Assembly: GCA_945862005.1 (NCBI GenBank)
Contig: CAMAWQ010000002.1
Location: forward strand, 1 to 50,292
Direction: 5' to 3'
Source of the DNA: Hylemonella gracilis
Lineage (GTDB): Bacteria > Pseudomonadota > Gammaproteobacteria > Burkholderiales > Burkholderiaceae_C
Length of the DNA stretch: 50,292 nt
Made by a program: the position numbers and the translations under genes. Shown one piece after another: positions 1,088 to 50,275 of the stretch; the first letter of the stretch is position 1, and the number at the start of each line of letters is the position of its first letter. The notes under the pieces were generated by a model. It had not been told where the DNA came from and did no database searches. It was given only the letters and a program-made list of their open reading frames with translations.

Positions 1088-1105
1088 TGTACATCCAAAT
1101 TAACA
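1088..1105. promoter_or_regulatory. PpsR/CrtJ-type operator TGT-N12-ACA (site 2, tandem)
   Basis: TGT ACATCCAAATTA ACA; 8 bp after site 1. Confidence 0.7.
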
Positions 1106-1200: not shown

Positions 1201-1353
1201 ATGTCTGATTCCCAGAAGGTATGGCCTACAGGGTTAACCGAGGCCGAATCCGAGGAAATACATAGAAACCTCATTCAGGGCACGCAAATTTTCGGCATGA
1301 TCGCCGCGTTTGCCCACCTGTTGGCGTATATCTATTCCCCTTGGTTGAAGTAA
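1201..1353 (+). CDS. pucB: LH2-type light-harvesting protein beta chain
   Basis: MSDSQKVWPTGLTEAESEEIHRNLIQGTQIFGMIAAFAHLLAYIYSPWLK; antenna beta motif with AFAHLLA His; AAGGAG-like RBS upstream of ATG 1201 (listed ORF start 1132 is too far upstream). Confidence 0.93.
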   Translation: MSDSQKVWPTGLTEAESEEIHRNLIQGTQIFGMIAAFAHLLAYIYSPWLK

Positions 1354-1369
1354 CAGAAGGAGCTACATC

Positions 1370-1558
1370 ATGATTTACGGAAAAATGTGGTGTGTGGTCA
1401 AACCCTCGGTGGGCATACCATTGTTCATCGCTGCCGTAGCAGTTGCATCGTTCAGCGTGCACCTCGCGATCGTGTCCAACACGACGTGGGTCAAAGCATT
1501 CTTGAACGGCAAAGCACCTGCTCCCGCAGTGACTGCAACGGCCCCGACGGGAAAATAA
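1370..1558 (+). CDS. pucA: LH2-type light-harvesting protein alpha chain
   Basis: MIYGKMWCVVKPSVGIPLFIAAVAVASFSVHLAIVSNTTWVKAFLNGK...; LH2 alpha pattern, His31; AAGGAG RBS. Confidence 0.93.
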   Translation: MIYGKMWCVVKPSVGIPLFIAAVAVASFSVHLAIVSNTTWVKAFLNGKAPAPAVTATAPTGK

Positions 1559-1628: not shown

Positions 1629-3020
1629 ATGACCACCAAATACCCCAAACTCGTTCATGTGTGGAGTGGTATCGCCCCCAAGTTTTTACCTTTTGCAGAC
1701 GCCGCCTCAGAAGATCTCCCGCTATCGCGCCTGTTGCGTTTGTCGCTGTTTCAAGTCAGCGTGGGTATGGCTTTAGTACTGTTGGTAGGCACCCTCAATC
1801 GAGTGATGATTGTGGAATTGCATGTGCCTGCTTCAGTTGTGTCGATCATGGTTGCCATACCCTTGCTGTTTGCGCCTTTTCGCGCCCTGATTGGTTTTAA
1901 ATCTGACAACTACCGATCTGAATTGGGTTGGAGGCGAGTACCCTACATGTGGAAGGGCTCTATGGTTCAGTTTGGCGGCTTAGCCATCATGCCGTTTGCC
2001 TTGCTGGTGCTGGCGGGCGCCGGTCAATCGGCCTCAGTACCCGTCTGGGTGGGCCTGATAGGCGCTGCCGTAGCATTTTTGATGGTAGGCGCGGGTTTGC
2101 ACACCATTCAAACCGCTGGTTTGGCCTTGGCCAACGACTTGGCGGCTGAAGAATCCAGACCCAAAGTCGTGGGCCTGATGTACGTCATGCTCCTGATAGG
2201 CATGATCGTGAGCTCCCTGGCCTTTGGCGCGTATTTATCTGATTTTTCACCCGGCGCGCTCATTCAAGTCATCCAGGCCAGTGCAGTGATCACACTGGTG
2301 CTCAACGTTATTGCGTTTTGGAAGCAAGAGCCCCGCAGCCGCATGCGCCGCGGTAAACCAGCGATAGAACCCTCTTTTGCCGAAGCTTGGCGCACCCTCA
2401 CGGTCGACTCCAGAACCTCCAGAACCTTGGTGGCCATTGGCATGGGCACGTTTGCGTTCAATATGGAAGACATTTTGTTAGAGCCTTATGGGGGTGAAGT
2501 GCTGAATATGAGCGTCAGCGAAACCACCTGGCTCACAGCCACCCTGTGTGTGGGAGGACTGTTGGGCTTTGCGTGGGCGTCTAGGGTGTTGGGCCGCGGC
2601 GCAGACCCTTACCGCATGTCTTGGGCGGGCGTGTTGTTGGGTATTCCGGCTTTTATGGCCGTGATTGCATCCGGTTACCTCCACATGCCATGGTTGTTTT
2701 CTTTAGGGGTACTGCTCATTGGCTTGGGCGGCGGCCTGTTCGGCCACGGCACGCTCACGTCTTGCATGAACCTGGCCCCCAAAGAGCAAAGTGGTTTGGC
2801 GCTGGGCGCATGGGGAGCGGTGCAAGCCACTGCGGCCGGGCTGGCCATGGCCTTAGGGGGCGTGGCCCGAGATGTGGTCAACCTCATGACGGACGGGGAC
2901 ATGGGCTATGTGAGTGTGTACGGGTTTGAAATCCTCATGCTAATTTTGACGGCCTACGTGCTGTATCCCTTAGTTGGGCAGTCCAAAATGGGCCTGCCAG
3001 CAGCCCAAAATGTCAACTGA
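1629..3020 (+). CDS. pucC: PucC / BCD-family MFS light-harvesting assembly transporter
   Basis: ORF 1620-3020, likely ATG start at 1629; PucC-like MFS sequence (LRLSLFQVSVGMALVLLVGTLNRVMIVEL). Confidence 0.9.
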   Translation: MTTKYPKLVHVWSGIAPKFLPFADAASEDLPLSRLLRLSLFQVSVGMALVLLVGTLNRVMIVELHVPASVVSIMVAIPLLFAPFRALIGFKSDNYRSELGWRRVPYMWKGSMVQFGGLAIMPFALLVLAGAGQSASVPVWVGLIGAAVAFLMVGAGLHTIQTAGLALANDLAAEESRPKVVGLMYVMLLIGMIVSSLAFGAYLSDFSPGALIQVIQASAVITLVLNVIAFWKQEPRSRMRRGKPAIEPSFAEAWRTLTVDSRTSRTLVAIGMGTFAFNMEDILLEPYGGEVLNMSVSETTWLTATLCVGGLLGFAWASRVLGRGADPYRMSWAGVLLGIPAFMAVIASGYLHMPWLFSLGVLLIGLGGGLFGHGTLTSCMNLAPKEQSGLALGAWGAVQATAAGLAMALGGVARDVVNLMTDGDMGYVSVYGFEILMLILTAYVLYPLVGQSKMGLPAAQNVN

Positions 3021-3043: not shown

Positions 3044-3136
3044 ATGCAAATTCACCATATTCTGCTGGCCCTATGGTTGCTGGTCGTCGTGTTGTTCTTG
3101 ATGAACTTTTTCAAAATCAAGAAGCCCAAGCGCTGA
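3044..3136 (+). CDS. Predicted 30-aa single-pass membrane peptide downstream of pucC
   Basis: ATG 3044 to TGA 3136: MQIHHILLALWLLVVVLFLMNFFKIKKPKR; AGGAG at 3033-3037 with 6-nt spacing. Below the ORF-track length cutoff. Confidence 0.65.
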   Translation: MQIHHILLALWLLVVVLFLMNFFKIKKPKR

Positions 3137-3307: not shown

Positions 3308-4159
3308 ATGGATCAGCGCCCCGCTCACAGAAGCTCAGCCTCTTCACCCGCACCTGCCTCACAGGACAGTTGTAAGGATTCGCTTCGACACGTGATTGAG
3401 TCGCAAATCATCCCGCGCCTTTTAGAAGCCACTGCCTTGGTGCAAGCTTCTAACGATGCTCAAACGTTTTTCGCCTGTTATGAGGGCGCACCCCAAGATG
3501 TTGAGGCGTTTGCCCACAGCTGCATGGCCAATGACGCAGCAACTTCCAGCCAGTTTATGGACGATTTGGTGGGGCAAGAATTCAGCATTGAAAGCCTGTT
3601 TTTAAACCTCATTACCCCCGCCGCACGCTGGTTAGGCGAGCAGTGGGAGGCAGACAAGATCGATTTCACGCAGGTGACCTTGGCGTTGCAGCGCATGCAC
3701 CACATCACTCACCGCTTGGGCTATGAGTTTCAAGCCCAGACCCATCAAGCCGACGACCCCAAAAGCATCATGCTGGCATCGGCTCCGGGCTCACAGCATT
3801 TGCTGGGCTTGGTGATGGTGAGCGAGTTTTTTCGCAAAGGCGATTGGCAAGTCACACTTGAAATCACCAACACCGAGCGCGAACTCCTGCACGCCGTCGC
3901 CAATGAGTGGTTTGACCTGATTGGTTTATCTTCAGGTCTTCAAGAGCAAGTCCATGGCTTACCGAGCCTGATTGCGCGCCTGAAAAAATTGTCTCGTAAC
4001 CCCAATATTGGAGTACTTTTAGGTGGGCCTGCTTTTATTGGACACACCCATCAGGCACACGATTTAGGGGCAGACGGCATTGCTACCGATGCCTCGCAAG
4101 CACTAGACATTGCGGCGAATGTCTTGCAATTAAAAAAACTGGCTAAGCATCCGGACTAA
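3308..4159 (+). CDS. ppaA: Cobalamin-binding (B12-binding domain) regulator, AerR/PpaA-like
   Basis: B12-binding-type C-terminal half (ASAPGSQHLLGLVMVSEFFRKGDWQV...GVLLGGPAF); PGC context; paralogous to 13558-14400. Confidence 0.75.
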   Translation: MDQRPAHRSSASSPAPASQDSCKDSLRHVIESQIIPRLLEATALVQASNDAQTFFACYEGAPQDVEAFAHSCMANDAATSSQFMDDLVGQEFSIESLFLNLITPAARWLGEQWEADKIDFTQVTLALQRMHHITHRLGYEFQAQTHQADDPKSIMLASAPGSQHLLGLVMVSEFFRKGDWQVTLEITNTERELLHAVANEWFDLIGLSSGLQEQVHGLPSLIARLKKLSRNPNIGVLLGGPAFIGHTHQAHDLGADGIATDASQALDIAANVLQLKKLAKHPD

Positions 4160-4180: not shown

Positions 4181-4198
4181 TGTCAATTTAGCTTGACA
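4181..4198. promoter_or_regulatory. PpsR/CrtJ-type operator upstream of bchI
   Basis: TGT CAATTTAGCTTG ACA, TGTCAA/TTGACA arms; 58 bp before bchI. Confidence 0.75.
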
Positions 4199-8505: not shown

Positions 8506-9692
8506 GTACGTACAAGGCCAAACAAATGGGCCAAATCTTTGAAGAAAATGCGCACATGCCGCATGGGGTCAGAACGAACCAACTCTTTGTTCATGTACGA
8601 GTCAAACGTTAATTTTTGCACGTCTTTGTCTTCACAGATTTTCACAAACCGCTCACGTCTTTGATCGTTTTGGTACCAGAAGTACTGCATGATGGCCAGT
8701 ACCCAAAACACCTTGCCGTGTAATTTTAAAAACCGCTTGCGCGCCTGCTTCAAGCAGGCGGCGTTTCCAGTGGCCAAGGCTTCTTGCACTGCCTCTGCGG
8801 CCATGCGTCCGCAGGCCATGGCGTAGTAAATGCCTTCGCCGGATGCTGGGGCCACCACACCCGCAGCGTCACCGGCCACCACCACATCTCGGCCGTTGTC
8901 CCATTTGGGCAGTGGCTTAAGCGGAATAGGCGCACCCTCGCGGCGCAAGGTTTTGACTTGGTCTAAGCCGGTTTGAGAACGCAAGGCCCCCACGGCTGAG
9001 CGCAATGAAAACCCTTTGTCGGCACTGCCAGTACCCACGCTCATGGTGCGCCCGTGGGGAAACACCCAACCGTAAAAGTCAGGCGACAAATGCCCTTGGT
9101 AAAACACGTCGCAACGTTCGGGGTCGTGGCCGGCGTGGGTGGGCGCCTCAATGATTTCGTGGTAAGCAAACACATACTTGGTTTTTTCAGCGCCCTCAAT
9201 CATTTGCCGCGCCACGCTGGAGCGGGCTCCATCTGCACCAATGATCATGCGGGCACGCGCCCTGCGCAGGACGCCCAAACCATGTTTGTTGACTTCATTG
9301 AAGTGCACCACGGCCATGCCATCTTCATCCCTGGTGATTTTTTGAAAGTCGGCACGGCAACGGTGGGCACCATGAGAGCTGGCACGTTCTCTGAGCCATT
9401 CATCAAATTCGTCGCGATCCACCATACCCACAAATCCATTTTCGATAGGAATGTCCACGCGGTTGTCTTTGGGGGACACCATGCGTGCGCAACGGGCTTT
9501 GGCTACCAGCAAATGGTCGGGGATTTCAAAGTCTTTGATGAGCCTTGGGGGTATGGCGCCACCACAGGGTTTGGTGCGACCTTGACGGTCTAAGAGCAAC
9601 ACTGATCGGCCCTGTAAAGCCAGATCATCTGCAGCAGTGGCGCCGCAGGGACCGCCACCCACCACGATCACGTCGTATTCTTCTGACATCAT
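8502..9692 (-). CDS. bchP: Geranylgeranyl reductase
   Basis: FAD-binding VVGGGPCGATAADDLA; DRQGRTKPCGGAIPPRL typical of BchP. Confidence 0.95.
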   Translation of the reverse strand: MMSEEYDVIVVGGGPCGATAADDLALQGRSVLLLDRQGRTKPCGGAIPPRLIKDFEIPDHLLVAKARCARMVSPKDNRVDIPIENGFVGMVDRDEFDEWLRERASSHGAHRCRADFQKITRDEDGMAVVHFNEVNKHGLGVLRRARARMIIGADGARSSVARQMIEGAEKTKYVFAYHEIIEAPTHAGHDPERCDVFYQGHLSPDFYGWVFPHGRTMSVGTGSADKGFSLRSAVGALRSQTGLDQVKTLRREGAPIPLKPLPKWDNGRDVVVAGDAAGVVAPASGEGIYYAMACGRMAAEAVQEALATGNAACLKQARKRFLKLHGKVFWVLAIMQYFWYQNDQRRERFVKICEDKDVQKLTFDSYMNKELVRSDPMRHVRIFFKDLAHLFGLVRT

Positions 9693-11056
9693 TGCTGAGC
9701 TCCTTGGTAGGTGTTAAATACAGAATCTGGGGATGCGGACGGCCCGTCCAGCCGAAACACATGCACGGCCACTGCGGCCGATAAGGCAAACATGAGGGCC
9801 TCCAGGCCAAACACAGTGGCATAGGCCAAACTTGGAGATGTAATGAGCCAGCGCGCCAAGTCGCTAGCCGCTGTGCCCAACACCCCGCCCAAGCCAAAGG
9901 CAATCGCTTGTGAAGCGCCCCACAGCCCCATGCGGGTGCCCTCGCGACCGCCCTGGCCTTTGCCGGCAAGCCTCATCATGGTGGCAATGGCGGCAATAGA
10001 AAACGCACCATTGGCCACGCCCAACACAAACACGTTAGCCCGTAGGGGCCAGCTCTGGCCTTGTATACCGGCAAGGCACAAACCGGACATGGCCACGGCC
10101 GAAATCAAACAGCCCCACACCATCCAGCTGGGTACAGACCCCAAACGGCCTTTGGCCCAGCTGCTTCCTGCCACCGCAACCAAAATCATGCCGGCCAACA
10201 CGCCGCTGTGGTGTAGTCCGGAGAGCTGCGTAGTGGCCCCTGGAGACATGCCAAACACCGACCCGGCAAAGGGCTCCAATATCAAGTCTTGCGAGCTGTA
10301 GGCCAACATAGACAAAAACACAAAAATGGTGAAGGTGCGGGCTTGCGGCTCGGCCCACACCTCTTGAAGCACTTGTTTAAAGCGCTGGCCGGAAGTTTGC
10401 TCTTGAGCCGCACTGGGCGAATTGAGCGAACTGGCTGAAGCGAGCAAGGCCACTGGCCCTTCAAGCCCCCAAAGGCTTAATGCCGCCACCAACACCACCG
10501 TGCAGGCCAAGCCTGTAGTGACCTGAATCAACACCGACGGGCTGTAAGGGTCTATGAGTTTGCCCACCGTGACCGCAGTAACCGCAAACCCCACAATCAT
10601 CATCATCCACACCAAGGTGGCGGCGGGCGCCCGTCTGTGGTCAGGAACCCGCTTGGCCATCAGGGCCAAGAGCGAGGTACCGCAGGCGCTCACTCCCAAG
10701 CCAATCAGGCAGAAGGCCAAGAAGGCCAGGACCATGCCAGCCCAAAGCTCAGAAGCCATCCAGACCGTAGCCACAGAGGCCAAGATGCCGCCCAATGCCA
10801 ACACCACCACGCCACCCAACATCCAAGGGGTTGAGCGGCGCCCTTCATCTGCCCCAAAACCTAAGCGTGGACGAACCATTTGCACACCGTAGTGCCAACC
10901 TACCAAAAGGCCCGGAAGCAGCGCGGGCAGTGCCAATTCGACCACCATGATGCGGTTTAAGGTGGAGGTGGTCACCACCACCACAGAGCCCAAGCAGGCT
11001 TGCACCAAGCCCAATCGCACAATGTGGAGCCAGCCAAACGGGGACATGGTGTGCAT
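9689..11056 (-). CDS. PucC/BCD-family MFS transporter between bchG and bchP
   Basis: PucC-like LGLVQACLGSVVVVTTSTLNRIMVVEL; located as in other PGCs between bchG and bchP. Confidence 0.88.
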   Translation of the reverse strand: MHTMSPFGWLHIVRLGLVQACLGSVVVVTTSTLNRIMVVELALPALLPGLLVGWHYGVQMVRPRLGFGADEGRRSTPWMLGGVVVLALGGILASVATVWMASELWAGMVLAFLAFCLIGLGVSACGTSLLALMAKRVPDHRRAPAATLVWMMMIVGFAVTAVTVGKLIDPYSPSVLIQVTTGLACTVVLVAALSLWGLEGPVALLASASSLNSPSAAQEQTSGQRFKQVLQEVWAEPQARTFTIFVFLSMLAYSSQDLILEPFAGSVFGMSPGATTQLSGLHHSGVLAGMILVAVAGSSWAKGRLGSVPSWMVWGCLISAVAMSGLCLAGIQGQSWPLRANVFVLGVANGAFSIAAIATMMRLAGKGQGGREGTRMGLWGASQAIAFGLGGVLGTAASDLARWLITSPSLAYATVFGLEALMFALSAAVAVHVFRLDGPSASPDSVFNTYQGAQQ

Positions 11057-11987: not shown

Positions 11988-12005
11988 TGTCAACAAGGGT
12001 TGACA
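11988..12005. promoter_or_regulatory. PpsR/CrtJ-type operator upstream of bchG
   Basis: TGT CAACAAGGGTTG ACA, with an extra TGTCAA half-site at 12013-12018. Confidence 0.72.
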
Positions 12006-12034: not shown

Positions 12035-13423
12035 TTATTCGGCGTCTTGGTCGCTGACCATGCCGTAACGCCGCAGCTTGACGTACAGGCTTTGCCTGGA
12101 CAAACCCAGCATTTCAGAGGCTGAAGCACGGTTGTTGTGGGTCAGGGTCAAGGCCGACTGAATGCACATTTTTTCAATCATGTCCACCGTCTCACCCACA
12201 ATGTCTTTAAGAGGCATGCGCCCGACCAAGCGGGACAGCTCGGCCACTGAGCCGGCCATTCCAGCGCTGGCTGAAGGCGTTTCTTGGGCTCGGCGACGCG
12301 CCACATCTTTGATAAAAAAAGCGTACTGCTGCTCATCCAAATGGGTCAGGCTGAGGGCAGAAATTTCCACCGCCAATTCCATACCTGAGAGCATACGCAA
12401 CTCGGTTGCAAAGTCTTTCACCAAGGCCTGTTGCCGCAAATTGGTACTCAGCACGCCCCAGTCCACTCCGCCGCGCACCAACCAGTTTTCCATCGGCACG
12501 CCTTGAACATGCGACACCGAAGTGGCGCCCATCATGGCCAAAAATTCGGTGTTAGCCGACTTGAGTTGGCCCGAGCGGTCGGTCAGCACAATGCCCACAG
12601 GAGCGTGCTCCATAGCCTCGGTCATCCAATAGTTTTGGCGCGAGCCTGATGGACCGCTGGAGGCCTCATGTTGCAAAAGTCGCACTAAAAATTGGGCGCC
12701 TGTTTCTTGTCGAAACACCGTGGCCGACACCGTGCAGTCCGCATTGGCGCCCAAAAACCGCGCTCTGCACATTTCAATTCTTCCGGTGGCATAGGCCATG
12801 CGCAGCAAGGACATGACCTCTTCTTTCCAGCCGGCCTCAAAGCAATCGGCAATGTCGCGGCCGACCAAACGCTTGCTGGAGTCTTTGACCATCGCTTGCG
12901 CGCTGACATTGACCTCGGTGACTCTGTATGTGGAACCATCCAACACCAATAAAGGTTCGCTGGTGGTGTTGAAAAGCGTACGGTAGCGGGCCTCTATGTG
13001 GCGCAGCCTGAAGTAATCCCGCTCCATAGACTGCTGTGTTTCCACCAAGCGGCGTTGGAGCACCGCTACAGCTTCTAAATCGCGGCCCAGAGCCAGAATG
13101 CGGCCGTCCATTTCCAAACGCAGCACCGCATATTGAATAGGCACATCCACCCCTTGCGGCGTGGCATGGTTCACATGCCTCCAGCGGATATCGCCTTCAG
13201 GCGCGTTGTTGGCCAGCATGTCTTCCACTTTGACTCGGCTTTCGCTGGTCACCAAGTCTGCCCAAGCTTTGCCCACCCAGTTTTGACAACCCAGCACGGC
13301 CAATTCAGACTTGCGAACCGAAACATCTTGCACCACACCTTGGTTGTCTATGATGAGCGCAATATCTGACGCGATGCCGATCAGTCGGGCAAGGGTATCA
13401 GCGTCAAATTTTTCAATGTTCAT
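12035..13423 (-). CDS. ppsR: PpsR/CrtJ transcriptional regulator (PAS domains + Fis-type HTH)
   Basis: PAS-like repeats; C-terminal HTH (CIQSALTLTHNNRASASEMLGLSRQSLYVKLRRYGM). Confidence 0.93.
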   Translation of the reverse strand: MNIEKFDADTLARLIGIASDIALIIDNQGVVQDVSVRKSELAVLGCQNWVGKAWADLVTSESRVKVEDMLANNAPEGDIRWRHVNHATPQGVDVPIQYAVLRLEMDGRILALGRDLEAVAVLQRRLVETQQSMERDYFRLRHIEARYRTLFNTTSEPLLVLDGSTYRVTEVNVSAQAMVKDSSKRLVGRDIADCFEAGWKEEVMSLLRMAYATGRIEMCRARFLGANADCTVSATVFRQETGAQFLVRLLQHEASSGPSGSRQNYWMTEAMEHAPVGIVLTDRSGQLKSANTEFLAMMGATSVSHVQGVPMENWLVRGGVDWGVLSTNLRQQALVKDFATELRMLSGMELAVEISALSLTHLDEQQYAFFIKDVARRRAQETPSASAGMAGSVAELSRLVGRMPLKDIVGETVDMIEKMCIQSALTLTHNNRASASEMLGLSRQSLYVKLRRYGMVSDQDAE

Positions 13424-22667: not shown

Positions 22668-23375
22668 ATGAACAGCACCACCTACGAAGCGCGCCGCAAC
22701 CAGATTGAGCACTATTTTGACCGCACGGCGGCCAATGCTTGGGCTCTATTGACCTCTAATGAACCGGTGGGTCGCATTCGCACCACGGTGCGAGAAGGCC
22801 GCGACCAAATGCGCACCACGCTCATGAGCTGGTTGCCGCAAGACATGCATGGCATGCGTCTGTTGGATGCAGGCTGCGGCACAGGTGCTTTGGCTGTTCT
22901 GGCAGCGTCACGAGGCGCTGAGGTGGTGGCCATTGACCTGTCACCCACCTTGGTCAATCTGGCACGTGAACGGATTGTTCAAGGCCTTTCCCACATGCCC
23001 GGGTCCATTGAGTTTTTGTCGGGTGACATGCTGGACCCCAATTTGGGCAGCTTTGACTATGTGGTAGCGATGGACTCGCTGATCCACTATGGTGCTGAAG
23101 ACATTTTGCGAGCTTTGACGGTGTTGTCACAGCGCACTCGCCATGGCATGTTGTTCACGTTTGCACCGCGCACGCCACTCCTCGCGCTCATGCACAGCAT
23201 GGGCCAATGGTTTCCTAAAAGCGACCGGTCACCCTCTTTGGTGCCGGTGGCTTACCAACACCTTTTAAAACTCATGAAGCAAACGCCTGAGTTACAAAGT
23301 TGGCACACCGCGCGCAACCTGCGCGTGTCCAGTGGCTTCTACACTTCTCAAGCTTGGGAATGGCGCCACGCATGA
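22668..23375 (+). CDS. bchM: Mg-protoporphyrin IX O-methyltransferase
   Basis: SAM motif LLDAGCGTGALAVLAASRGAEVVAIDLS; downstream of bchL. Confidence 0.95.
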   Translation: MNSTTYEARRNQIEHYFDRTAANAWALLTSNEPVGRIRTTVREGRDQMRTTLMSWLPQDMHGMRLLDAGCGTGALAVLAASRGAEVVAIDLSPTLVNLARERIVQGLSHMPGSIEFLSGDMLDPNLGSFDYVVAMDSLIHYGAEDILRALTVLSQRTRHGMLFTFAPRTPLLALMHSMGQWFPKSDRSPSLVPVAYQHLLKLMKQTPELQSWHTARNLRVSSGFYTSQAWEWRHA

Positions 23376-24829
23376 AGCTTGCGGCCAAGCTCATGAACAC
23401 ACCCTTGCTGCGTCCACCAGGGTGGGTGATGGCATTGGGCAGCCGCATCATGCCGTTTGCAGATGCCGCCTCTCCTGAGCTGCCCATGAGCCGTTTGCTG
23501 CGTTTGTCTTTGTTTCAATTGGTCATTGGCATCAACATGGCACTGTTGGTGGGCACCCTCAACCGCGTCATGATTGTGGAGTTGGGCATGCCCGCTTGGA
23601 TCGTGGCTTGCTCGGTGGCCATACCTTTGTTGTTTGCACCTTTGCGCGCATTCATCGGGTACCGCAGTGACACCCACCCCTCGCCCTTAGGTTTGCGCCG
23701 TCTGCCTTATTTGTGGATGGGCAGCTTGATGCTGTTCGGGGGTTTGGCCATCATGCCCTTTGCCTTATTGTTGTTGTCCGAGTCCATAGACCAAACTCTT
23801 TCACTGGGTCACGTGGGCGCCTGCTTGGCCTTTGTGTTGGTAGGTGCGGGTATGCAAGTCACTCAAACGGCAGGTATGGCTTTGGCCAATGACCTTGCCC
23901 CTGCAGAAAAGCGTCCTCGCGTGGTGGCCTTGCTCTACACCATGCTGTTGGTGGGCATGATTGGCAGCAGCGCGGTGTTGGGTTGGCTCCTGGAAGACTT
24001 TTCCCCCAAACTGCTGATTCAGGTCATTCAGGGCTCCGCTGTCTTGGTGTTGGTGCTCAACTTGATGGCGCTTTGGAAACAAGAGGCGCGTCAACCACGC
24101 CGTGGCGCACGCCAAGTAGATGGCTTTAAGCAGAGCTGGACCCAGCTGATGCAACTGCCCCACATGAAACGCTTTTTGTGGACGGTGGGCTTGGGCACCA
24201 GCGCCTTCAGTATGCAAGACATTATTTTGGAGCCCTATGGCGCTGAGGTGTTGGGCCTGAGCGTGGGCATGACCAGCAGCCTCACAGCCATCAGCATGGC
24301 CGGGGCTCTGCTGGCGTTTATAGGTTCAGCGAGATGGCTGAGCCAAGGCATTCATGCCTGCCGCTTGGCCAGTTTGGGCGTGTTGACTGGTCTGCCCGCA
24401 TTTGCCTTAGTCATTTTTTCTGCCCCCATGGAGTCGATTTGGATGTTTCGCATCGGCGTGCTCTTGATTGGGTTTGGGGGCGGTTTGTTTTCGGTGGGCA
24501 TGTTGGTCACGGCCATGTCACTTCCGAACAAAGAACACAGCGGTTTGGTCTTAGGGGCTTGGGGCGCTGTGCAAGCCACAGCGGCTGGCGCCTCTATGGC
24601 GCTGGGCGGTGTGATTCGAGATGTGGTGGCGCAATGTGTGCAGTGGGGCTGGCTTGGAGAACCCTTGATGGGTCCGGCAACTGCTTACAGCTTTGTTTAC
24701 CACATTGAAATTTATTTGTTGTTTGTGGTGTTGGTGGCCTTGGGTCCGCTGGTTCGACGCTCTCGCAGGGAATCAACTGGCGCAAACCTTAGGTATTCCA
24801 AATTGGGGCTGGCTGAATTGCCGGGTTAA
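23372..24829 (+). CDS. lhaA: PucC-family LH1 assembly protein
   Basis: PucC-like MFS, bchM-lhaA-puhA order; ATGA overlap gives start 23372 rather than 23300. Confidence 0.9.
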   Translation: MKLAAKLMNTPLLRPPGWVMALGSRIMPFADAASPELPMSRLLRLSLFQLVIGINMALLVGTLNRVMIVELGMPAWIVACSVAIPLLFAPLRAFIGYRSDTHPSPLGLRRLPYLWMGSLMLFGGLAIMPFALLLLSESIDQTLSLGHVGACLAFVLVGAGMQVTQTAGMALANDLAPAEKRPRVVALLYTMLLVGMIGSSAVLGWLLEDFSPKLLIQVIQGSAVLVLVLNLMALWKQEARQPRRGARQVDGFKQSWTQLMQLPHMKRFLWTVGLGTSAFSMQDIILEPYGAEVLGLSVGMTSSLTAISMAGALLAFIGSARWLSQGIHACRLASLGVLTGLPAFALVIFSAPMESIWMFRIGVLLIGFGGGLFSVGMLVTAMSLPNKEHSGLVLGAWGAVQATAAGASMALGGVIRDVVAQCVQWGWLGEPLMGPATAYSFVYHIEIYLLFVVLVALGPLVRRSRRESTGANLRYSKLGLAELPG

Positions 24830-30200: not shown

Positions 30201-31275
30201 TACCTTGAGTACCTCTGCTACCGAATTGGATTTAGAGTCGTGCGTCGGCATGATGCGCGCAGGCTCGAAAACATTTTTTGCAGCCAGCCGCCTGCTCCCC
30301 CAACGCATGAGGGCAGCGTCTGTGGCCTTGTATGCGTTTTGTAGGGTTGCCGACGATTTGGTAGACGGCGCTGAATATTCTCCGACGCAAAGTCTCAAAC
30401 TGTTGCACCATCGGCTTGACCGGGTGTACCAAGGTCAACCCACCGAAGCCATTGAAGACCAAGCTTTGGCTTTGGTGGTGCAGCAGTACCAGCTGCCCCG
30501 TTTGTTACTAGACGGTTTGCTTGAGGGTTTTGCATGGGATGCCGAGGGTCGCCGTTACGACACCCTAGAGCAACTCCACAGCTACGCCGCACGTGTGGCC
30601 GGAACAGTGGGCGGCATGATGTGTTGGATCATGGGCATTCGCCACCCCGTGGCCTTGGCCCGGGCTTGCGAATTGGGTGTGGCCATGCAACTGACCAACA
30701 TTGCCCGCGATGTGGGCGATGACGCCCGCATGGGACGCATCTATCTGCCCTACGCTTGGTTGCAGGAAGCAGGCATTACGCCCCAGGAGTGGCTGCAACA
30801 ACCTGAGTGCACCCCTGCCCTGCAGTCGGTGGTGAGCCGCTTACTTGACGAAGCTGACCGCTTGTACGAGCAGGCCAGCGCAGGCATTGCCAATTTGCCT
30901 AAAGACTGTCGCCCTGCGATTTTGGCGGCACGTTTGATCTATGCCGAAATTGGCCATCAGCTTCGCCGCAATGGGCTGAACTCTGTGGACCACAGGGCCG
31001 TGGTGGGCACGCCCACCAAGCTTATGCTGCTCGGCCAATCTCATTTATCTGCCGCTTGGATCAAGCCAGCCGAACACCCTCCCAAGCCCCTAGATGCCAT
31101 TGCCTATTTAGTAGATGGGTGTGTGGCTCAAGTGGCTTGTGAAACCGCACATGCACCAAGCACTGCGACCAGCTCTAGGTCTGCAGTGGACAAAATTGAA
31201 TGGATGCTGGTGCTGTTTGAGCGCCTAGCTCACGAACGCCGCGACGCTATGGAAGCGCCTCGGGTTTTGCACTAA
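30181..31275 (+). CDS. crtB: Phytoene synthase
   Basis: YAFCRVADDLVDG and LTNIARDVGDDARMGRIYLP motifs; start 30181 likely. Confidence 0.96.
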   Translation: MSTPSSSTLSTSATELDLESCVGMMRAGSKTFFAASRLLPQRMRAASVALYAFCRVADDLVDGAEYSPTQSLKLLHHRLDRVYQGQPTEAIEDQALALVVQQYQLPRLLLDGLLEGFAWDAEGRRYDTLEQLHSYAARVAGTVGGMMCWIMGIRHPVALARACELGVAMQLTNIARDVGDDARMGRIYLPYAWLQEAGITPQEWLQQPECTPALQSVVSRLLDEADRLYEQASAGIANLPKDCRPAILAARLIYAEIGHQLRRNGLNSVDHRAVVGTPTKLMLLGQSHLSAAWIKPAEHPPKPLDAIAYLVDGCVAQVACETAHAPSTATSSRSAVDKIEWMLVLFERLAHERRDAMEAPRVLH

Positions 31276-32132
31276 AAAGGCTTTTCACCCAAGACAGTGA
31301 TACGTCTGAGCTTTCTTCTTTCGCTCGAATCAAAGTCGCTTCGAGCATGGAGAGTGCATCTGTTGTCCCAAATAATGATGTCTCCAACAGTCCACTTGTG
31401 GGCATAGGTAAATTCAGCCTGCTCGGCATGGTCGAACAAGAAATTTAATATGTCGTTGCTCTCATTTATGGGTAAGCCAATGATGTGATCGGTCATTAAG
31501 CGGTTCACGTACAAAGCTTTACGCTTCGTTACCGGATGGGTACGAAATACCGGGTGGGCAAAGTGTTTAACACCTTCCGCAATTTTAGATCCTCGCTTGG
31601 TACCGCTTGCTTCGTAGTCGTATACATTGACTGCCATTAACCCCTCAAGTTTGATTTTCAGCTCAGAGGGTAGCGTTTCGTAAGCTTTGTACATATTCGA
31701 AAAAATGGTGTCGCCACCCTTTTTAGGAATCTCCATGGCATAAAGCATTGTGGCCATGGCGGGTTTTTCTACATAACATTGGTCTGAGTGAAAATACATC
31801 TCACCATCGGGCAAGGCGCCAATTAGTGCTCCATTTTCCTTGATGTTAGATATATACATAACGGAGGGGTGTCTGCCTCCCCCGGTATGTTTATTCAGAA
31901 CACTGCCAAGCACACCAAACTGCTCACAAAACCTGACTTGATCGTCTTCTTCCAAACGTTGCCCGCGAATTAAAAGGATCAGACCGTCATGCCAGGCCTG
32001 TTGAATACGATTGAATTTTTCATGATCCAGTGGCTCTGATAAGTCAACGCCACAAATTTCCATACCCAGCGCAGCGGAAACAGGCCTAATTTGAATATCG
32101 GCAACATTTGTATGTTCCATATGTACATCCAA
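31272..32132 (-). CDS. TauD/TfdA-family Fe(II)/2-oxoglutarate dioxygenase
   Basis: FHSDQCY (HxD), WDNRCTLHAR distal His; TauD fold sequence. Start may be 32120. Confidence 0.9.
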   Translation of the reverse strand: MDVHMEHTNVADIQIRPVSAALGMEICGVDLSEPLDHEKFNRIQQAWHDGLILLIRGQRLEEDDQVRFCEQFGVLGSVLNKHTGGGRHPSVMYISNIKENGALIGALPDGEMYFHSDQCYVEKPAMATMLYAMEIPKKGGDTIFSNMYKAYETLPSELKIKLEGLMAVNVYDYEASGTKRGSKIAEGVKHFAHPVFRTHPVTKRKALYVNRLMTDHIIGLPINESNDILNFLFDHAEQAEFTYAHKWTVGDIIIWDNRCTLHARSDFDSSERRKLRRITVLGEKPF

Positions 32133-32213
32133 GGCTTTAGTTAAGGAAAAAGAGATGGGTTAGGGTTGAGTTAAAAACCTTTGAGCCCGTCAGTAAGATG
32201 GGGGTTACGTGTT

Positions 32214-33104
32214 TTAGCATTCGTAGCGCTTGGCAGCTTCCATCAAAACGGGAGTACCAATCATTTCATTTAGGCCATCAAAGTCAAGCATCTTTTGTTG
32301 CCATGGGGCTGTGCTTTGATGTTTGCGTAAGCTGGCGTAGTAACCTTGAAGTGTGTGAGCGACTGCACGCGCAGTTCCACCAGGAAAGATCACAATACTA
32401 AAACCACGCTGCCCCAGTTCATCCACTGTCTGGAGGGGGGACTTACCACCTTCAACCATATTGGCAAGCAGCGGCACCCTATTGGCAAAGCGGGAGCAGG
32501 CATCATCCATTTGCTGTGGTGTGCGAAGCGCTTCGATAAATAGAGCATCTACGCCACAGTTCAGGTACTCCTCGGCCCGATCCATAGCTGCGTCCATACC
32601 CTCGACGGCAACAGCATCCGTGCGAGCAAGAATTAAAGTGTCAGCGCTATGTCTGGCGTCAAGCGCAGCGCGCAGTTTGCCGCACATCTCACTGGTTGCA
32701 ACTACAGTTTTACCGTCTAAGTGACCACAGCGTTTAGGGAAAGTCTGATCTTCAATTTGAATCATGGCAGCGCCTAAACGCTCAAATCCACGAACTGTGC
32801 GTTGAACGTTAACAACATTACCAAAACCTGTATCAGCATCCACAATCACTGGAATGGCAACTCTATCTGTTATGCGAGCTAGTGTGTCTTCGACCTCAGT
32901 AAATGTGGTGAGTCCAACGTCTGAGCGACCAAGACGGGTGTATGCAATTGAAGCTCCCGAAAGATAAATTGCTTCAAAACCCTCCTGCTCAGCAACTAAG
33001 GCTGTCATCGCATCGTAAACGCCTGGAGCCAATACAGCGGACTGCTCAGTGAGCCGAGTTTTAAAAGAAGGCATGAGTATTGGCTTTAAGTTGTAAAACA
33101 ACAA
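32214..33104 (-). CDS. Isocitrate lyase/PEP mutase-superfamily C-C lyase
   Basis: PGVYDAMTALVAEQEGFEAIYLSG, DADTGFGN, FPKRCGH lyase signature (methylisocitrate/dimethylmalate lyase-like). Confidence 0.9.
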   Translation of the reverse strand: MLFYNLKPILMPSFKTRLTEQSAVLAPGVYDAMTALVAEQEGFEAIYLSGASIAYTRLGRSDVGLTTFTEVEDTLARITDRVAIPVIVDADTGFGNVVNVQRTVRGFERLGAAMIQIEDQTFPKRCGHLDGKTVVATSEMCGKLRAALDARHSADTLILARTDAVAVEGMDAAMDRAEEYLNCGVDALFIEALRTPQQMDDACSRFANRVPLLANMVEGGKSPLQTVDELGQRGFSIVIFPGGTARAVAHTLQGYYASLRKHQSTAPWQQKMLDFDGLNEMIGTPVLMEAAKRYEC

Positions 33105-33114
33105 TAATCATCAC

Positions 33115-34587
33115 TCAAGTTGTGGGCCGGAACAAATACTTGCCTTTAGGCTTGCCAATAACTTGACCGTTCTCATAGATTTTTTCACCCCTAAGATAGG
33201 TGGCTTCAACGCTCGCAGAAAGCTCTAGACCTTCAAAGGGGGTGTAACCCTGAGTGGACGCCGAATCCTTGGCATGTATGGTCCAGGTTTTGGCTGGATT
33301 AACTAGAGCAATATCAGCGTCAAAGCCATGAGCAATATCACCCTTGCTATTGAGCCCATAGCGCTGGGCAGGATTCCAACTTAGCACACGAGCCATATGG
33401 TTGTAACCCATTCCGCGTTTTGTGCCTTCGCTCACAAGAGAAGGCAGTAGGTATTCGGTGCCACCAAATCCACTCTTGGTCATCCATATATTTCCAAAGT
33501 AACGTTTGGCAGATTTCATTTCGTGACGGCAGCATGCGTGGTCACTGACAACCCAGTCCAACTCACCAGCCAGGAGCGCCTCCCATAGAAACTCCACATC
33601 CTCGCGCGGGCGAATGGGCGGATTGACCTTAGCCAAAACTGCTGCTTTACTATGAATATCAAGCATCAGGTGACCAATAGTGACTTCGCGCTTGAAATCA
33701 ATATGTGGAAAGGTTTGAGCCATCATCATCGCGGCCTGAACCGCTTTTCGGGACGACAGGTGAAGAAGATTGATGTTGGGCAAAGCTGTCTCATGAGCTA
33801 GGTAGCTAGCGATAAAAACAGCAAGGCCTTCTGAGTGCTGCGGCCTAGAAGCACTATAGGCTGCCAAACCGCTTAACGATTTATCTTTTTGAACTAGCTC
33901 CGTGTATGCCGTCATGACTTCAGCAGTCTCGCAGTGCAAGGACAGTGAAATTTGCTTAGCACGATCTGGAAACCTCTCTCTCGCTGCCTGAATGCCACGC
34001 ATGATGAACTCGAAGTGAGCGAAATCGTACCGCTCGTCCTCACCGATCATCAAGAAGTCTTTTTGCGAGTTTGAGGCTCCATGCAGGCCGTGCGAGCCAT
34101 AGAACATGAAGATCTTAAAACTGGATACACCGTGCTTTTCAATGAGTTCAGGAATTTCCCGAATGTGCTCACGGTCCATTGGCGCCAGATGAAAACCATA
34201 GTCAACGTGAAATCTACCGCGAGCGATTTTGAGTACTTCAGGATAAAACTTTTTGTAAGGTCCGCCCTTATTCAGGTAGTACTGCCCCGTTCGGAAATAA
34301 TTAAGACTCGAAGTGACACCCCCCATAGCCGCGGCTTTACTTTCGGAGATTGCATCTTCATACAGAGGAGAGTAGATACCACTGTGCATATGCGCATCCA
34401 CTACTCCCGGAAAGGCTAAGGCTCCTTTAGCGTCATCCACTCGCTTAGCTCTACTCACATCAATACCCGGTGCTATCAACGCAAACTTGCCCTCATTGAT
34501 AGCGATATCGCTATCGTGAACGACATTGCCATGAGGACGAACTAGGCGAACATTCTTAATAAGCAAGTCAAATTCGGGTTGATTCAT
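33115..34587 (-). CDS. Dihydropyrimidinase/hydantoinase/dihydroorotase-like amidohydrolase
   Basis: Metal ligands DAHMHSG, SSFKIFM (carboxylysine), LHCET, LLHLSS, VSDHAC. Confidence 0.88.
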   Translation of the reverse strand: MNQPEFDLLIKNVRLVRPHGNVVHDSDIAINEGKFALIAPGIDVSRAKRVDDAKGALAFPGVVDAHMHSGIYSPLYEDAISESKAAAMGGVTSSLNYFRTGQYYLNKGGPYKKFYPEVLKIARGRFHVDYGFHLAPMDREHIREIPELIEKHGVSSFKIFMFYGSHGLHGASNSQKDFLMIGEDERYDFAHFEFIMRGIQAARERFPDRAKQISLSLHCETAEVMTAYTELVQKDKSLSGLAAYSASRPQHSEGLAVFIASYLAHETALPNINLLHLSSRKAVQAAMMMAQTFPHIDFKREVTIGHLMLDIHSKAAVLAKVNPPIRPREDVEFLWEALLAGELDWVVSDHACCRHEMKSAKRYFGNIWMTKSGFGGTEYLLPSLVSEGTKRGMGYNHMARVLSWNPAQRYGLNSKGDIAHGFDADIALVNPAKTWTIHAKDSASTQGYTPFEGLELSASVEATYLRGEKIYENGQVIGKPKGKYLFRPTT

Positions 34588-34604
34588 AAAAGTGCCAGCT
34601 TTAT

Positions 34605-35597
34605 TCAGTCAATGTTGATGCGATTAGCCTTGATAACAGGGGCCCACTTTCGATTTTCAGCTTGAATAAAGCCCACGTAGTCTGCACCAACCAAAGGTAG
34701 AGGAGTCATCCCCAACTCGATAAGTCGAGATTGAATCTCGGGAATATTGACAATGGCTTGTACTTCCCGTTGGAGCCGCAGTGTGATATCAATCGGCAAA
34801 CGCGCCGGTGCCGAAATACCGAACCACGCCCCACCCGTGACACCAGGCAAGATTTCATTAAGTGTTGGAACATCTGGAAAGGAGGTACTTCGTTTTTCGC
34901 CGCTGACCGACAACAGTCGCATCTTGCCCCCCCTTACGTAACCTGTGGCAGTAACTAAGCTTTCAAACATGCCATCCAATTGACCACCAAGCAAATCGTT
35001 AATAGCTGGGGCTGAACCCTTGTAGGGCACATGGACCATGTCAATACCTGCCGCCAACTTGAGCAACTCCCCCGTAAGAAAACCTGAACTACCTACCCCG
35101 GCCGAGGCGTAGTTGAAAGCCCCCGGCTTTGAGCGCGCTATAGCTATGAAATCAAGCATTGTTTTGGCGGGGTGATCGCTACGCACAACAAATCCATTAG
35201 CGAAGGTTCCCAGCAAGGAGATATGGGTAAAGTCCTTGACGGGTTCATAAGGCATTGTGCTTCGCATCAATGGGCCAGGAGCAATAGCTGGATTGGCAGC
35301 GACAACCAAGGTATAGCCATCTGGGGCCGCTTTTGCAACGCTATCTGTACCCAAAAGCGAACCTACGCCGGGCCGGTTTTCGACCACTACGGCAACATTA
35401 AGAGCCTCCGCAAGGCGCTGACTGAACATGCGGGCAATGACATCTGTAGAGCCGCCAGCTGGAAATGGCACTACAAGCCTAATTGGACGAACTGGATAAG
35501 CCTGAGCAAGAGCGAGCTTGGAATATGTAAACACATTACCAACTAGCGCAAACGACAAGCCATTTAGTACTTTACGACGTGTAAACTTGTTCAACAT
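34605..35597 (-). CDS. Tripartite tricarboxylate transporter (Bug) substrate-binding protein with Tat-like signal
   Basis: YPVRPIRLVVPFPAGGSTDVIARMF; TRRKVLNGL leader. Confidence 0.92.
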   Translation of the reverse strand: MLNKFTRRKVLNGLSFALVGNVFTYSKLALAQAYPVRPIRLVVPFPAGGSTDVIARMFSQRLAEALNVAVVVENRPGVGSLLGTDSVAKAAPDGYTLVVAANPAIAPGPLMRSTMPYEPVKDFTHISLLGTFANGFVVRSDHPAKTMLDFIAIARSKPGAFNYASAGVGSSGFLTGELLKLAAGIDMVHVPYKGSAPAINDLLGGQLDGMFESLVTATGYVRGGKMRLLSVSGEKRSTSFPDVPTLNEILPGVTGGAWFGISAPARLPIDITLRLQREVQAIVNIPEIQSRLIELGMTPLPLVGADYVGFIQAENRKWAPVIKANRINID

Positions 35598-36795
35598 GAA
35601 AGCCCTCCCTCAAGTTTTAATTGTAGGTGCCGGTCCAGTGGGCCTTACTGCCGCTCTGGTTTTGGCGGATTCTGGTGTCAAGGTTCAAGTGCTTGAGGCA
35701 TCCAGCGGCATAGAAGAAGACCTTCGCGCCTCTACATTCCACCCGCCGACCTTGGATATGCTCGATGCTTGGGGCATTACCAGTACCTTGCTGGCACAAG
35801 GTTTGTTGTGTCCACATTGGCAGGTCCGCCTTCACCCTGCTGGAGAGTTTGCACGTTTCGACCTGTCTGTACTGGCTGACATCACCGCACACCCCTACAG
35901 ACTCCAATGCGAGCAGTTCAAGCTTTCTCGTGCATTGTTGGCTCGACTGAAAGACTTTCCTCATGCGCATGTGCGCTTTGGCACATCTGTGGAAAAAGTC
36001 TCTCAGAACGATAGCAGTGTTCAATTGCATGTGACCCATGAAGACGGCTCTGAAAACTTGCGCGGTGGGTGGTTGATCGGAGCAGACGGTGCACACAGCA
36101 TTGTGCGCAAAGCGCTCGGAGTTGGCTTTGAAGGTCAGACTTACCCCGAAACTACGATTTTGGCTACTACCAACTTTGCTTTTGAAGAGCACTTGCCAGG
36201 GTTGTCTAATGTGTCTTATTGCTGGCATATGGATGGAGGTAACTTCAGTCTGCTTAAGGTTCCTGAACGTTGGAGGGTCTCTATCTACCCTGATGCGAAC
36301 AAGCCCATTGAAGAATCTTTGACCCCTGAAGCCATTGAAGAGTCTCTCCAAGCTATCGTTCCGCATGAGAAACCATACCAGGTGATGGAAGTAAGACCCT
36401 ACCGCGTACATCAGCGTATAGCCTCGTCTTACGGAATTGGTCGAATCTGGTTGGCCGGAGACGCCGCCCATTTGAATAGCCCAGCCGGAGGTATGGGAAT
36501 GAACGGCGGCGTGCATGACGCGCTTAACTTGGCCAAAAAACTGGTGAGAGTTTTGAGGGGCGAGCCCAGCGAGCTGTTGGCTCAATACGAACTTCAGCGC
36601 CGGCCTGTAGCACTTGAACAAATTCTCAAGCAATCCGACGCCAACCGAGCTCGCATGCGTGAGCGTGACCCCACTCTGCGCCGCCAGGCCTTGCAGAAAC
36701 TTCAGGTTATTGCTGATGACCCTGTTGCCCATAGGCAGCACCTGCTTCGCACATCGATGATCGAAGGACTGAGACTCAGCGGCCAGATTCAATAG
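35596..36795 (+). CDS. FAD-dependent monooxygenase (class A flavoprotein hydroxylase)
   Basis: VLIVGAGPVGLTAALVLADSGVKVQVLEAS; LIGADGAHSIVRKALG; IWLAGDAAHLNSPAGGMGMNGGVHDALNLAKKL. Start MKALPQV at 35596 chosen. Confidence 0.9.
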   Translation: MKALPQVLIVGAGPVGLTAALVLADSGVKVQVLEASSGIEEDLRASTFHPPTLDMLDAWGITSTLLAQGLLCPHWQVRLHPAGEFARFDLSVLADITAHPYRLQCEQFKLSRALLARLKDFPHAHVRFGTSVEKVSQNDSSVQLHVTHEDGSENLRGGWLIGADGAHSIVRKALGVGFEGQTYPETTILATTNFAFEEHLPGLSNVSYCWHMDGGNFSLLKVPERWRVSIYPDANKPIEESLTPEAIEESLQAIVPHEKPYQVMEVRPYRVHQRIASSYGIGRIWLAGDAAHLNSPAGGMGMNGGVHDALNLAKKLVRVLRGEPSELLAQYELQRRPVALEQILKQSDANRARMRERDPTLRRQALQKLQVIADDPVAHRQHLLRTSMIEGLRLSGQIQ

Positions 36796-36803
36796 CCCAA
36801 CTA

Positions 36804-37574: not shown

Positions 37575-37581
37575 AAGGAAT

Positions 37582-40330: not shown

Positions 40331-40378
40331 AACAGAATTTTTTTCACAGCGAAAAAGCGAAACATAATTAAAAGGGAT

Positions 40379-42168: not shown

Positions 42169-42443
42169 CTAATTAAAGTTTTCCATTTTTATGATTATTT
42201 TGCAAATCATTAAATAGGGGTAAACACTTGGTGAATTAGCAAATGTGTGTGGCTAGGGTAATACCTGTTGTTGCACTTGTTCCTAGCCCTTAGCATTCAA
42301 AGCTGTGTAATGCACAAGAACTCATACGCTGCTTGAGAAACTCGAACAGTGAATTCAAACCTAAAATTTGAATCAATCAACTTAGGATCGGCCTATTTCG
42401 TCTGTGTTTCGCAACATTCAAACAAGTCACTCAGCTTATCCAT

Positions 42444-43148: not shown

Positions 43149-43157
43149 GGCAACCCT

Positions 43158-47313: not shown

Positions 47314-48366
47314 TCATTTTTTGGCAACAACATCTCGTGTGGCCGCAGACTTTAAAAGCTCAGGAAAGTCCTTAGCCATTTGGGCGCCATTTAAAGGTTT
47401 ATAAGCGCCTTGGTGACAGGTACCGCAATTGATTTTGGCGGTATCGCCCAATGGCCCCAAACGCTCTGCAGGGAATGTAGGCTGCAAGGGCTCCATGTAC
47501 TCGTTGTTCAGGTCGCGCGCCATACGAATGCCATGCCAAGCCTTAGCCCTTTGTGGCGGACTGCCCTCCCAGCTCGAGAAAGAGTTGGTGTTGTGGCAAT
47601 ACGTACAGTTCACACCCAATGATGAGGACATGTGGGTCATAAGGCTGTAGGTCCACTCGGTTTGCTTGATGGAGTGGCGGTTGCCGTTAGGCAATGCTGT
47701 GGTGCCAGACACCCGAATGTCCAAGTCGCCGAGCAAAAATGGTGTGAAGGGGTCAGACGGCAATGAGGCCAGCTTGACACTTTCTGCAGCCAAGTTTTGG
47801 CCAGCACGCTCGCCAATAAAGTCGGCACCGCGGTGTTGGTCCGGCTCTTTGAACCAAACTTGCGCAGGTACAGGCTGACCGCGGTGACAGCTGTAGCACG
47901 TGACACCTGTTTGGGCCACGTGAGGCTGCCAGTCGGCGTTGATGTGCTGCGTCATTTGAATCATGCGCCGCGCCACCACCTTGGTGTACTTGCTGTCTTC
48001 TGCAAAGTTGGCCGGGTTGTGGCAGTAAGTGCAGCCTTCGTTGGGCGATACCCAGCTGGTGATGGCCACCATGTGGCGTGCAAACTGCCCAACGCTCAAG
48101 TCGCCTAAGACCTGAACATTTTTATAGACCTTGCCTGCCAAAGGCCCATCGCCAGAGGCTTGCGGTAAGGAGACCGGTGCGGTGTGAATGTCTTGGCTCG
48201 CCTCTACCGTGCGAGGGTTGTACACCTGCACCATGCCAGTTCCCCGGTAGCCGTGTTGCACGGACTCTATGGGGGGTCGTTCGCAACCTGACAACAGCAT
48301 GACAGCAGAGACGGCCAAAACAGCCAGCACGCCACTAGAGGCCTTTAAGCCTTGAAAAGGTTTCAT
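47314..48366 (-). CDS. pufC: Photosynthetic reaction center tetraheme cytochrome c subunit
   Basis: Lipobox LLSGC; four CxxCH motifs (CTYCH, CYSCH, CTYCH, CGTCH); ATGA overlap with pufM sets start at 48366. Confidence 0.97.
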
Positions 48367-49340
48367 GGTTTCACTCCAGTCATCAGGGCAGGATCCACTA
48401 CAGCAGGAAATACAGCGGGGTAAGCGGGCGCCACGCCATGCTTGACAGCCCACAGGTACCAGTTGTCCACCACCGTGCCGGTGAGCAGAATGCCAATGCC
48501 ACCTGTTAGGGGACACAGAACCGCGAACCACCATGCCCAGCGGTGAATGGATTCCATCGTGGCGTTAAAGCCCATGGTCCACCGCCAAAACAATGCCGCA
48601 CGCTCAGAAGCGGTACCACGGTCGACAATTTGTTCAATTTCACGCTCTCCACCATATTTGGTGACCGCCAAAATCGTAGCGCCATGCATGGCAAACAGCA
48701 AAACAGAGCCGTACAAAAACACAATAGACAAAGCATGAAAGGGGTTGTAGAACAGGTTGCCATAGCGCAATGAGAACGCTGCAGTCCAATCCAGATGCGG
48801 GAAGATGCCGTAAGGAACCGCCTCAGACCAAGATCCCATCAAGATGGGGCGGAACAGACCCAACACCATCATGAGCCAGATGGCGGCAGCAAAGGCCCAA
48901 GCCACATGCGTGCCCATACCCAATTCGGTGGCTCTGCGGTACACACGAGCCCACCACAGCAACACCGAGGCCATAAAGAAGAATCCTGTGAGCAGGAACC
49001 ACCCCCCTTGGTTCATGGGCGGAATGCCCAAGCCGTAGGCTGGTGCGGGCGGCTCTAGTGCCAGCCAGAACAACTGTCGCACAAATTGAATCGGGTTCCA
49101 GTCGACCGAGGCCAACATGTTCATGCCAATGATCGTGAAGGCAAATACACCACAGATCAGTGAGGCCAAGCCCAAGCCCCCTAAGTAAATGGGACCCAAC
49201 TGCGCATTACCCAGACGTCCGAACAAATGGATTAAGAAGGGCTGTCCGCTTCGGGGACTGTTGCCATGCCCAAGTTCTACGCCATGCTGCACAGGGCCGG
49301 TAGCCTGCACAACGGTGAAGATGTTTTGATATTCAGCCAT
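48363..49340 (-). CDS. pufM: Photosynthetic reaction center M subunit
   Basis: [26 protein letters not shown]-type sequence. Confidence 0.98.
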
Positions 49341-49354
49341 GTGAGTCTCCTGTC

Positions 49355-50179
49355 TTATTTCCAAATGGGCATGTTGAGCCACCAGCTCCACCATTCAGGC
49401 CAACCACGGGTCCAGAACGGTCCGCTGATAACGATGCACAAGGCACTAAACAAAACGGCTGCTAAGGCTAAGAACAAACCCAACCGGTGAATGCCCAAGG
49501 TGCCTACGGAGTAGCCGATGATGTCTCGGAAAAAGGTGTCTTCGTGCTCTGGGGTTCTGACGGTGTGACCTGGTGCCGGGTTGGTGGAAGACAACACCAA
49601 GGCACCGTGTAAGGACAGAGCTAAGGTGGTGGTGAAGAAAAAGGTCACCGCCAGCATATGGGCGGGGTTGTAATGAAAGTGCAGGTATTGGTAGCCTACG
49701 TTGGACACCCAATCTAAGTGACTGAAAATGCCGTATGGGAAACCATGCCCCCAAGCGCCCATGAGCACAGGGCGCACCACCACTAAGGTGACGTAACCCA
49801 ATATAGCCACAGCGAACGCTGCGGGCACATGAAAACCCATACCCAATTTGCGGCAGATTTCAACCTCTCGGAGCATCCACGACACAAAGGCGCCGATGGC
49901 ACACACCGTGATGAGCTGCCACAGCCCGCCTTCCATAAGGGGGGCGAAGCGTAAGCCGTACGACAAGTCGGGCGGCGCAATACTGATTTGCCACAGATTC
50001 CAAGTAGGCCCCTGTGAGGCGCCCCACAAAATCATGGCGGTTCCTAAGAACGAGAAAAATAAAGTGGTGACGCCGAAAAACCCGACGTAAAAAGGGCCGA
50101 CCCAAAAATCAAAAAGGTCACCGCCTAACAACGTGCCCCCTCGCACTCTGTACTTCTTTTCAAAATTTAGCATGGCCAT
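49355..50179 (-). CDS. pufL: Photosynthetic reaction center L subunit
   Basis: [37 protein letters not shown]. Confidence 0.98.
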
Positions 50180-50233
50180 GTTGGCACCCTCCAGCTGCTT
50201 GCTGTGAAACGAATAGAGATGAAATTCAAAAAG

Positions 50234-50275
50234 AGGCAAACAGCTTCATGGCGTGAACCAATCCCCTGTTTGCCT
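50234..50275 (-). terminator. Hairpin upstream of pufL, followed by T-run on the minus strand
   Basis: Minus strand AGGCAAACAG-22 nt-CTGTTTGCCT-CTTTTTG: perfect 10-bp stem. Confidence 0.7.

Follow-up and report, generated by a model that had tools for sequence, protein, structure and literature searches.

We report that the puc genes of the contig analyzed here most probably encode a sole, donor-free, blue-shifted LH2-type antenna ring absorbing at about 813 nm (range 803-826 nm), a reading to which we assign a probability of roughly 85%. On this reading, pucBA would specify the only peripheral antenna of a phototrophic betaproteobacterium of the Comamonadaceae, whose nearest named relatives carry the label Hylemonella. 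Phe44 and Leu45 stand where the alpha chain usually has its donors to the B850 C3-acetyl groups, and Val41 where the LH3 of Rbl. acidophilus 7050 (1IJD) has its substitute donor, Tyr41. Acetyl groups deprived of hydrogen bonds would rotate out of plane, moving ring absorption to higher energy; B800 would lie near 799 nm, and the ring would pass its energy to LH1 at ~865 nm. The donor-free state would constitute a long-kept property of the group, and not a low-light isoform maintained beside LH2.

The window (the whole stretch of 50,292 nucleotides) is an entire contig of a 1.70 Mb genome that is 72% complete. The contig starts inside hemA and continues with pucB, pucA, pucC, a 30-codon ORF, a PpaA/AerR-type B12-binding regulator (3308-4159), bchI and bchD, after which the rest of the photosynthesis gene cluster runs to the contig edge, ending just after pufL. 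The reaction-center genes pufM (to 49394) and pufL (49355-50239), read from their translations, occupy 48363..50239 on the reverse strand, and pufBA (LH1) is expected beside pufL, beyond the contig end. Besides the puc-linked protein, two more PUCC-family proteins are encoded at 9689-11056 (reverse strand) and 23300-24829 (forward strand), probably serving LH1 assembly or bacteriochlorophyll handling. Judging from translations only, ~11-13 kb of unrelated genes (31272-44081) seem to break the photosynthesis gene cluster between crt genes, comprising several TctC-like solute-binding proteins, an aconitase-like pair, and dihydropyrimidinase-like and monooxygenase-like ORFs. The nearest named loci belong to metagenome-assembled genomes (MAGs) labelled Betaproteobacteria, Comamonadaceae and Hylemonella, and PucA is present in 5 of the 26 genomes of the window's genus group, its own genome counted.

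Assignment to the LH2-type antennas follows from both subunits and from the linked assembly gene. The beta subunit (pucB, 1201..1353, forward strand, 50 aa) and the alpha subunit (pucA, 1370..1558, forward strand, 62 aa; translation MIYGKMWCVVKPSVGIPLFIAAVAVASFSVHLAIVSNTTWVKAFLNGKAPAPAVTATAPTGK) both match the Pfam LHC family PF00556, the latter with an E-value of 3.2e-8, and beta-His39, the B850 ligand by alignment, and alpha-His31 (codon 1460-1462) align with solved LH2 chains; PucB carries a further histidine at position 21. Directly downstream on the same strand lies pucC (1629..3020), encoding a PUCC-family membrane protein (PF03209, 6.5e-153).

The earlier note had placed PucA in gapless register with LH2 alpha chains from Met1 onwards and had recognized the LH3 pair in Phe44/Leu45. 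Searching PDB chains with phmmer bears out both statements: PucA aligns without gaps and with matching numbering to LH2 and LH3 alpha chains, residues 3-49 pairing with 3-49 of 1IJD (B800/820) and residues 3-48 with 3-48 of 1KZU (B800/850), so that the placement of positions 44 and 45 holds against both characterized types. The 1IJD alpha chain has the sequence ...HTTWYAAFLQGG, with Tyr41, Phe44 and Leu45, and that of 1KZU the sequence ...HTTWFPAYWQGG, with Phe41, Tyr44 and Trp45. In PucA the pair is specified by ttc (1499-1501) and ttg (1502-1504), lacks a hydrogen-bond donor at either position and is identical to that of 1IJD. The alpha-Tyr41 acetyl donor of 1IJD, a feature not universal among LH3 complexes, is Val41 in PucA; this is no ground against LH3 membership, because a second B800/820 chain (9dwz, Phe41-Phe44-Gln45) also lacks Tyr41. 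The best PDB match of PucA is the alpha chain of the PucD-LH2 of Rps. palustris (7ze3), with Val41, Phe44 and Met45. An independent MAG encodes a PucA that is 94% identical and has the same pair, and among relatives sharing Phe44-Leu45 in the analyzed set each of the two Phe and six Leu codons occurs at these sites, which together show that the pair is no sequencing slip. The mixed codons indicate that residues, not bases, are conserved, and the pair is maintained in the group by purifying selection.

The predicted absorption draws on measured antennas. A comparison of nine LH2 structures links absorption to the number of C3-acetyl hydrogen bonds, with ~850 nm for two, ~825 nm for one and ~800 nm for none; 1IJD retains a single such bond, from alpha-Tyr41, PucD-LH2 has zero and absorbs at 803 nm, and an alpha-Tyr44/Tyr45 double mutant of Rba. 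sphaeroides with Ser27 kept is a B800-826 complex, shifted by 24 nm at 77 K (PMC9618040). Of the nearest relatives with measured spectra, Rfx. antarcticus, with Phe44-Phe45 and one puc operon, absorbs at 819 nm and lacks an 850 nm band (PMC5374385), and Limnohabitans planktonicus peaks at 799 and 813 nm, values available second-hand from a review (PMC12654162), which weakens our reading somewhat. From its residues (Ser27, Val41, Phe44, Leu45) we identify no C3-acetyl donor in PucA. That the shift leads away from 850 nm is well supported by structures and mutants, and this part of the earlier note's claim of absorption near 820 instead of 850 nm stands. Its figure does not: the 820 nm value comes from an LH3 in which the alpha-Tyr41 bond is retained, and given Val41 we regard ~813 nm as the better estimate, L. 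planktonicus, the Rba. sphaeroides double mutant and PucD-LH2 serving as the best analogues and the exact wavelength being extrapolated from structures, mutants and the spectrum of one relative. That the protein behaves as a close copy of the 1IJD antenna and peaks at 820 nm, a special case of our reading differing in the exact peak, is possible but rather unlikely; it draws on the shared Phe44-Leu45 pair and on the 819 nm peak of the Phe-Phe antenna of Rfx. antarcticus, but Val41 cannot make the Tyr41 bond to the C3-acetyl group, and the best-matched measured genus, Limnohabitans, gives 813 nm. Full-text literature searching on the B800-814 complex (PDB 9lt4) yielded nothing useful, in PMC11324704, consulted for an energetic rationale, none of the terms was present, and PMC5017807 provided no match at strain level.

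Companion antennas were sought in the genome and its relatives. The only PF00556 matches in the 72%-complete genome are pucB and pucA, so the pair that the earlier note had described as the sole pucBA in the window is also the only one in the genome as assembled. Following its suggestion to look for additional copies, ten relatives whose genomes were reached through named loci, the nearest relative's included (eight with Phe44-Leu45, two with Tyr44-Leu45), were found to have four LHC matches each, corresponding to one pufBA and one pucBA. A second pucBA with Tyr/Trp, as expected of a low-light isoform system, was found neither in the 72%-complete genome nor in these ten relatives; nearly all genomes searched give a single PucA match, and a search of plasmids gave zero. 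One pucBA in the genome itself and in 10/10 relatives makes a companion LH2 unlikely, and the missing 28%, where a second pucBA is conceivable, leaves it a small chance. The corresponding two-antenna alternative, in which a Tyr/Trp pucBA resides in that missing part and the Phe44-Leu45 pair marks a low-light isoform as in Rbl. acidophilus, has precedent in the LH2 and LH3 pairs known from other purple bacteria (PMC5374385) and appeals to the incompleteness of the genome, but the single copies in the relatives and in nearly all other genomes searched render it very improbable.

Equally poor are the prospects of restored hydrogen bonding, whereby beta-Trp48 (His39+9) or alpha-Ser27, either of which could bond elsewhere on the B850 pigments, would return absorption to >=840 nm as in normal LH2: in Phs. 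molischianum the C3-acetyl of beta-B850 is indeed bonded by a beta-Trp, in Rba. sphaeroides Ser27 bonds a B850 carbonyl (PMC9618040), and both residues are present here, but Phs. molischianum additionally carries alpha-Trp45, the Rba. sphaeroides double mutant moved to 826 nm despite its Ser27, and Limnohabitans, with the same beta C-terminus, has no 850 nm band.

The second pigment site of the putative donor-free ring has its own peculiarity. Codon 29 of pucB (1285-1287) specifies Gln at the B800 acetyl site. This position precedes the B850 histidine by ten residues and is ordinarily Arg in LH2, as it is in the R. palustris beta chain to which PucB was aligned. Beta-Arg hydrogen-bonds the B800 acetyl group, and substitution by Leu, Glu or Phe moves B800 to 783-789 nm, whereas Met leaves it at 800 nm (PMC6358721). 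Gln occupies this position in 88 of the 97 beta chains read in the analyzed set, and Gln29 probably still donates a bond to B800, since Limnohabitans has Gln there and its B800 lies at 799 nm.

To place the alpha-chain pair in context, PucA was surveyed in genomes drawn evenly from the family (401) and from the order (400). These two draws yielded 52 distinct genomes with PucA and provide a fair frequency figure, as opposed to the biased count (78 FL and 2 YL, writing residues 44 and 45 in one-letter code) among 80 named loci picked by similarity to the window's PucA. FL is present in 32 of these 52 genomes, followed by YY (9), FF, YW and YH (2 each) and YL, FV, FY and FM (one each), with one pair unread. 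FL is therefore the most frequent pair in the PucA of Burkholderiales, and the window is unexceptional in carrying it. The notion of FL as a rare state was dropped after this census, and the pair is not the striking feature of this particular antenna that the earlier note took it for. Within group g112, 37 of the 38 PucA read are FL, all 37 with Val41/Phe44/Leu45, and one is YL; the identification of g112 as Limnohabitans, on which our reading partly leans, hangs on the PucA of a single named strain (L103), identical to that of two g112 members. Genus g128 (L142-L153, L222-L231) includes four FL, four FF and four YY versions, and its FF and YY members can share identical beta chains (L222, L226).

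PucA offers too few residues for a phylogeny, and a tree of PucC from 109 loci served as a proxy. It requires 17 changes of the 44/45 pair, a count that presumes that pucA and pucC travel together and that is subject to short-search support values, many deep branches being weak. On this tree YL (L091, L104, L252, L242) has four separate origins, three of them within FL rows, where Phe44 would have switched to Tyr, and the fourth within YY rows, and FF and YY are interleaved inside g128. Residue 44 thus appears to have been switched repeatedly, and a Tyr44-Leu45 PucA should keep one acetyl bond.

A further component of the operon may be its more novel feature. Directly after pucC, and preceded by a strong Shine-Dalgarno sequence (aggaga), a 30-aa peptide with a single helix and a basic tail is encoded at 3044..3136 on the forward strand. 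Homologous membrane peptides of this architecture, 26-43 aa long, occupy the same place in at least 89 of the 106 betaproteobacterial pucBAC loci eligible for the count (among them L066, L063, L103 and L222-L229), with the consensus MxxxxILxIxWxVxxxFxLxNxFN.., and several of the 17 loci scored as lacking one have a peptide that overlaps the pucC end. Codon differences are predominantly synonymous, both in 20 independent close pairs (84 synonymous vs 53 non-synonymous) and between the window and L066 (9 vs 1), an excess that identifies the peptide as apparently a real protein under purifying selection. Comparison with Pfam, NCBIfam and the PDB gave no convincing family match, and a full-text literature search for earlier descriptions of a small ORF in this position returned nothing useful. 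The peptide does not go with the FL pair alone, being present at YY and FF loci too.

Regulation of the operon was considered through its upstream region. Two tandem TGTN12ACA sites of the CrtJ/PpsR type (1062-1079 and 1088-1105, forward strand) lie upstream of pucB; the motif occurs at chance level across the window (12 vs 14.1 expected), and the tandem arrangement recurs, again at a 26-bp step, in the near relatives L066 and L062. The stretch examined in Limnohabitans L103 contains no such sites. A ppsR-like regulator with PAS domains and a Fis-type HTH, a candidate puc repressor, is encoded at 12035..13423 on the reverse strand, and control of puc by PpsR through the tandem sites is likely. 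Similar sites are found at 4181-4198, before bchI, and at 11988-12005.

An LH3-only antenna has been proposed as possibly unique to Rfx. antarcticus and attributed to habitats that are cold and dark (PMC5374385), and the Limnohabitans spectrum (PMC12654162) had already pointed to its existence beyond that species. Our survey of predicted proteins indicates that such antennas are widespread and seemingly the norm in this betaproteobacterial group; this kind of donor-free pair is the most frequent state among betaproteobacterial phototrophs, many of them from lakes and reservoirs, which argues against a purely polar explanation. The natural series FL, YL, FF, YY, YH and YW in similar backgrounds makes the contribution of each bond to color directly measurable, and g128, with FF, YY and FL and with FF and YY on identical beta chains, constitutes a natural test of positions alpha44/45. 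Jointly, and at somewhat less than even odds, we tentatively put forward that a large betaproteobacterial clade relies on a permanent, blue-shifted, LH3-only antenna without C3-acetyl hydrogen bonds, that its lineages retune this antenna by single switches at alpha44 (from Phe to Tyr at least three times, and Phe-Phe versus Tyr-Tyr with identical beta chains in g128), and that most operons add a membrane micropeptide that may join the complex or help assemble it.

Among known systems, 1IJD shares the Phe44-Leu45 pair in gapless register but differs in Tyr41, which makes an acetyl bond, in its N-terminus and in its C-terminal tail; it is a light-regulated isoform beside LH2, whereas no such partner was found for PucA in the 72%-complete genome. 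The PucD-LH2 of Rps. palustris shares Val41, Phe44 and the lack of acetyl bonds, but has Met45 and Val27 in place of Leu45 and Ser27 and belongs to a genome with several puc sets. Rfx. antarcticus likewise lacks Tyr/Trp at 44/45 and has a single puc operon within the photosynthesis gene cluster, but its pair is Phe44-Phe45 and its puc genes lie among crt genes, whereas here they are flanked by hemA and ppaA-bchID. The Limnohabitans antenna has Val41, Phe44, Leu45, Ser27, a near-identical beta chain and a single pucBA in common with the one described here, and differs in a PucA that is ~77-78% identical and in the neighbors of its puc operon. The antenna encoded in the window is thus a member of the LH2/LH3 family that works like LH3 and is at odds with the picture of a low-light isoform accompanying LH2.
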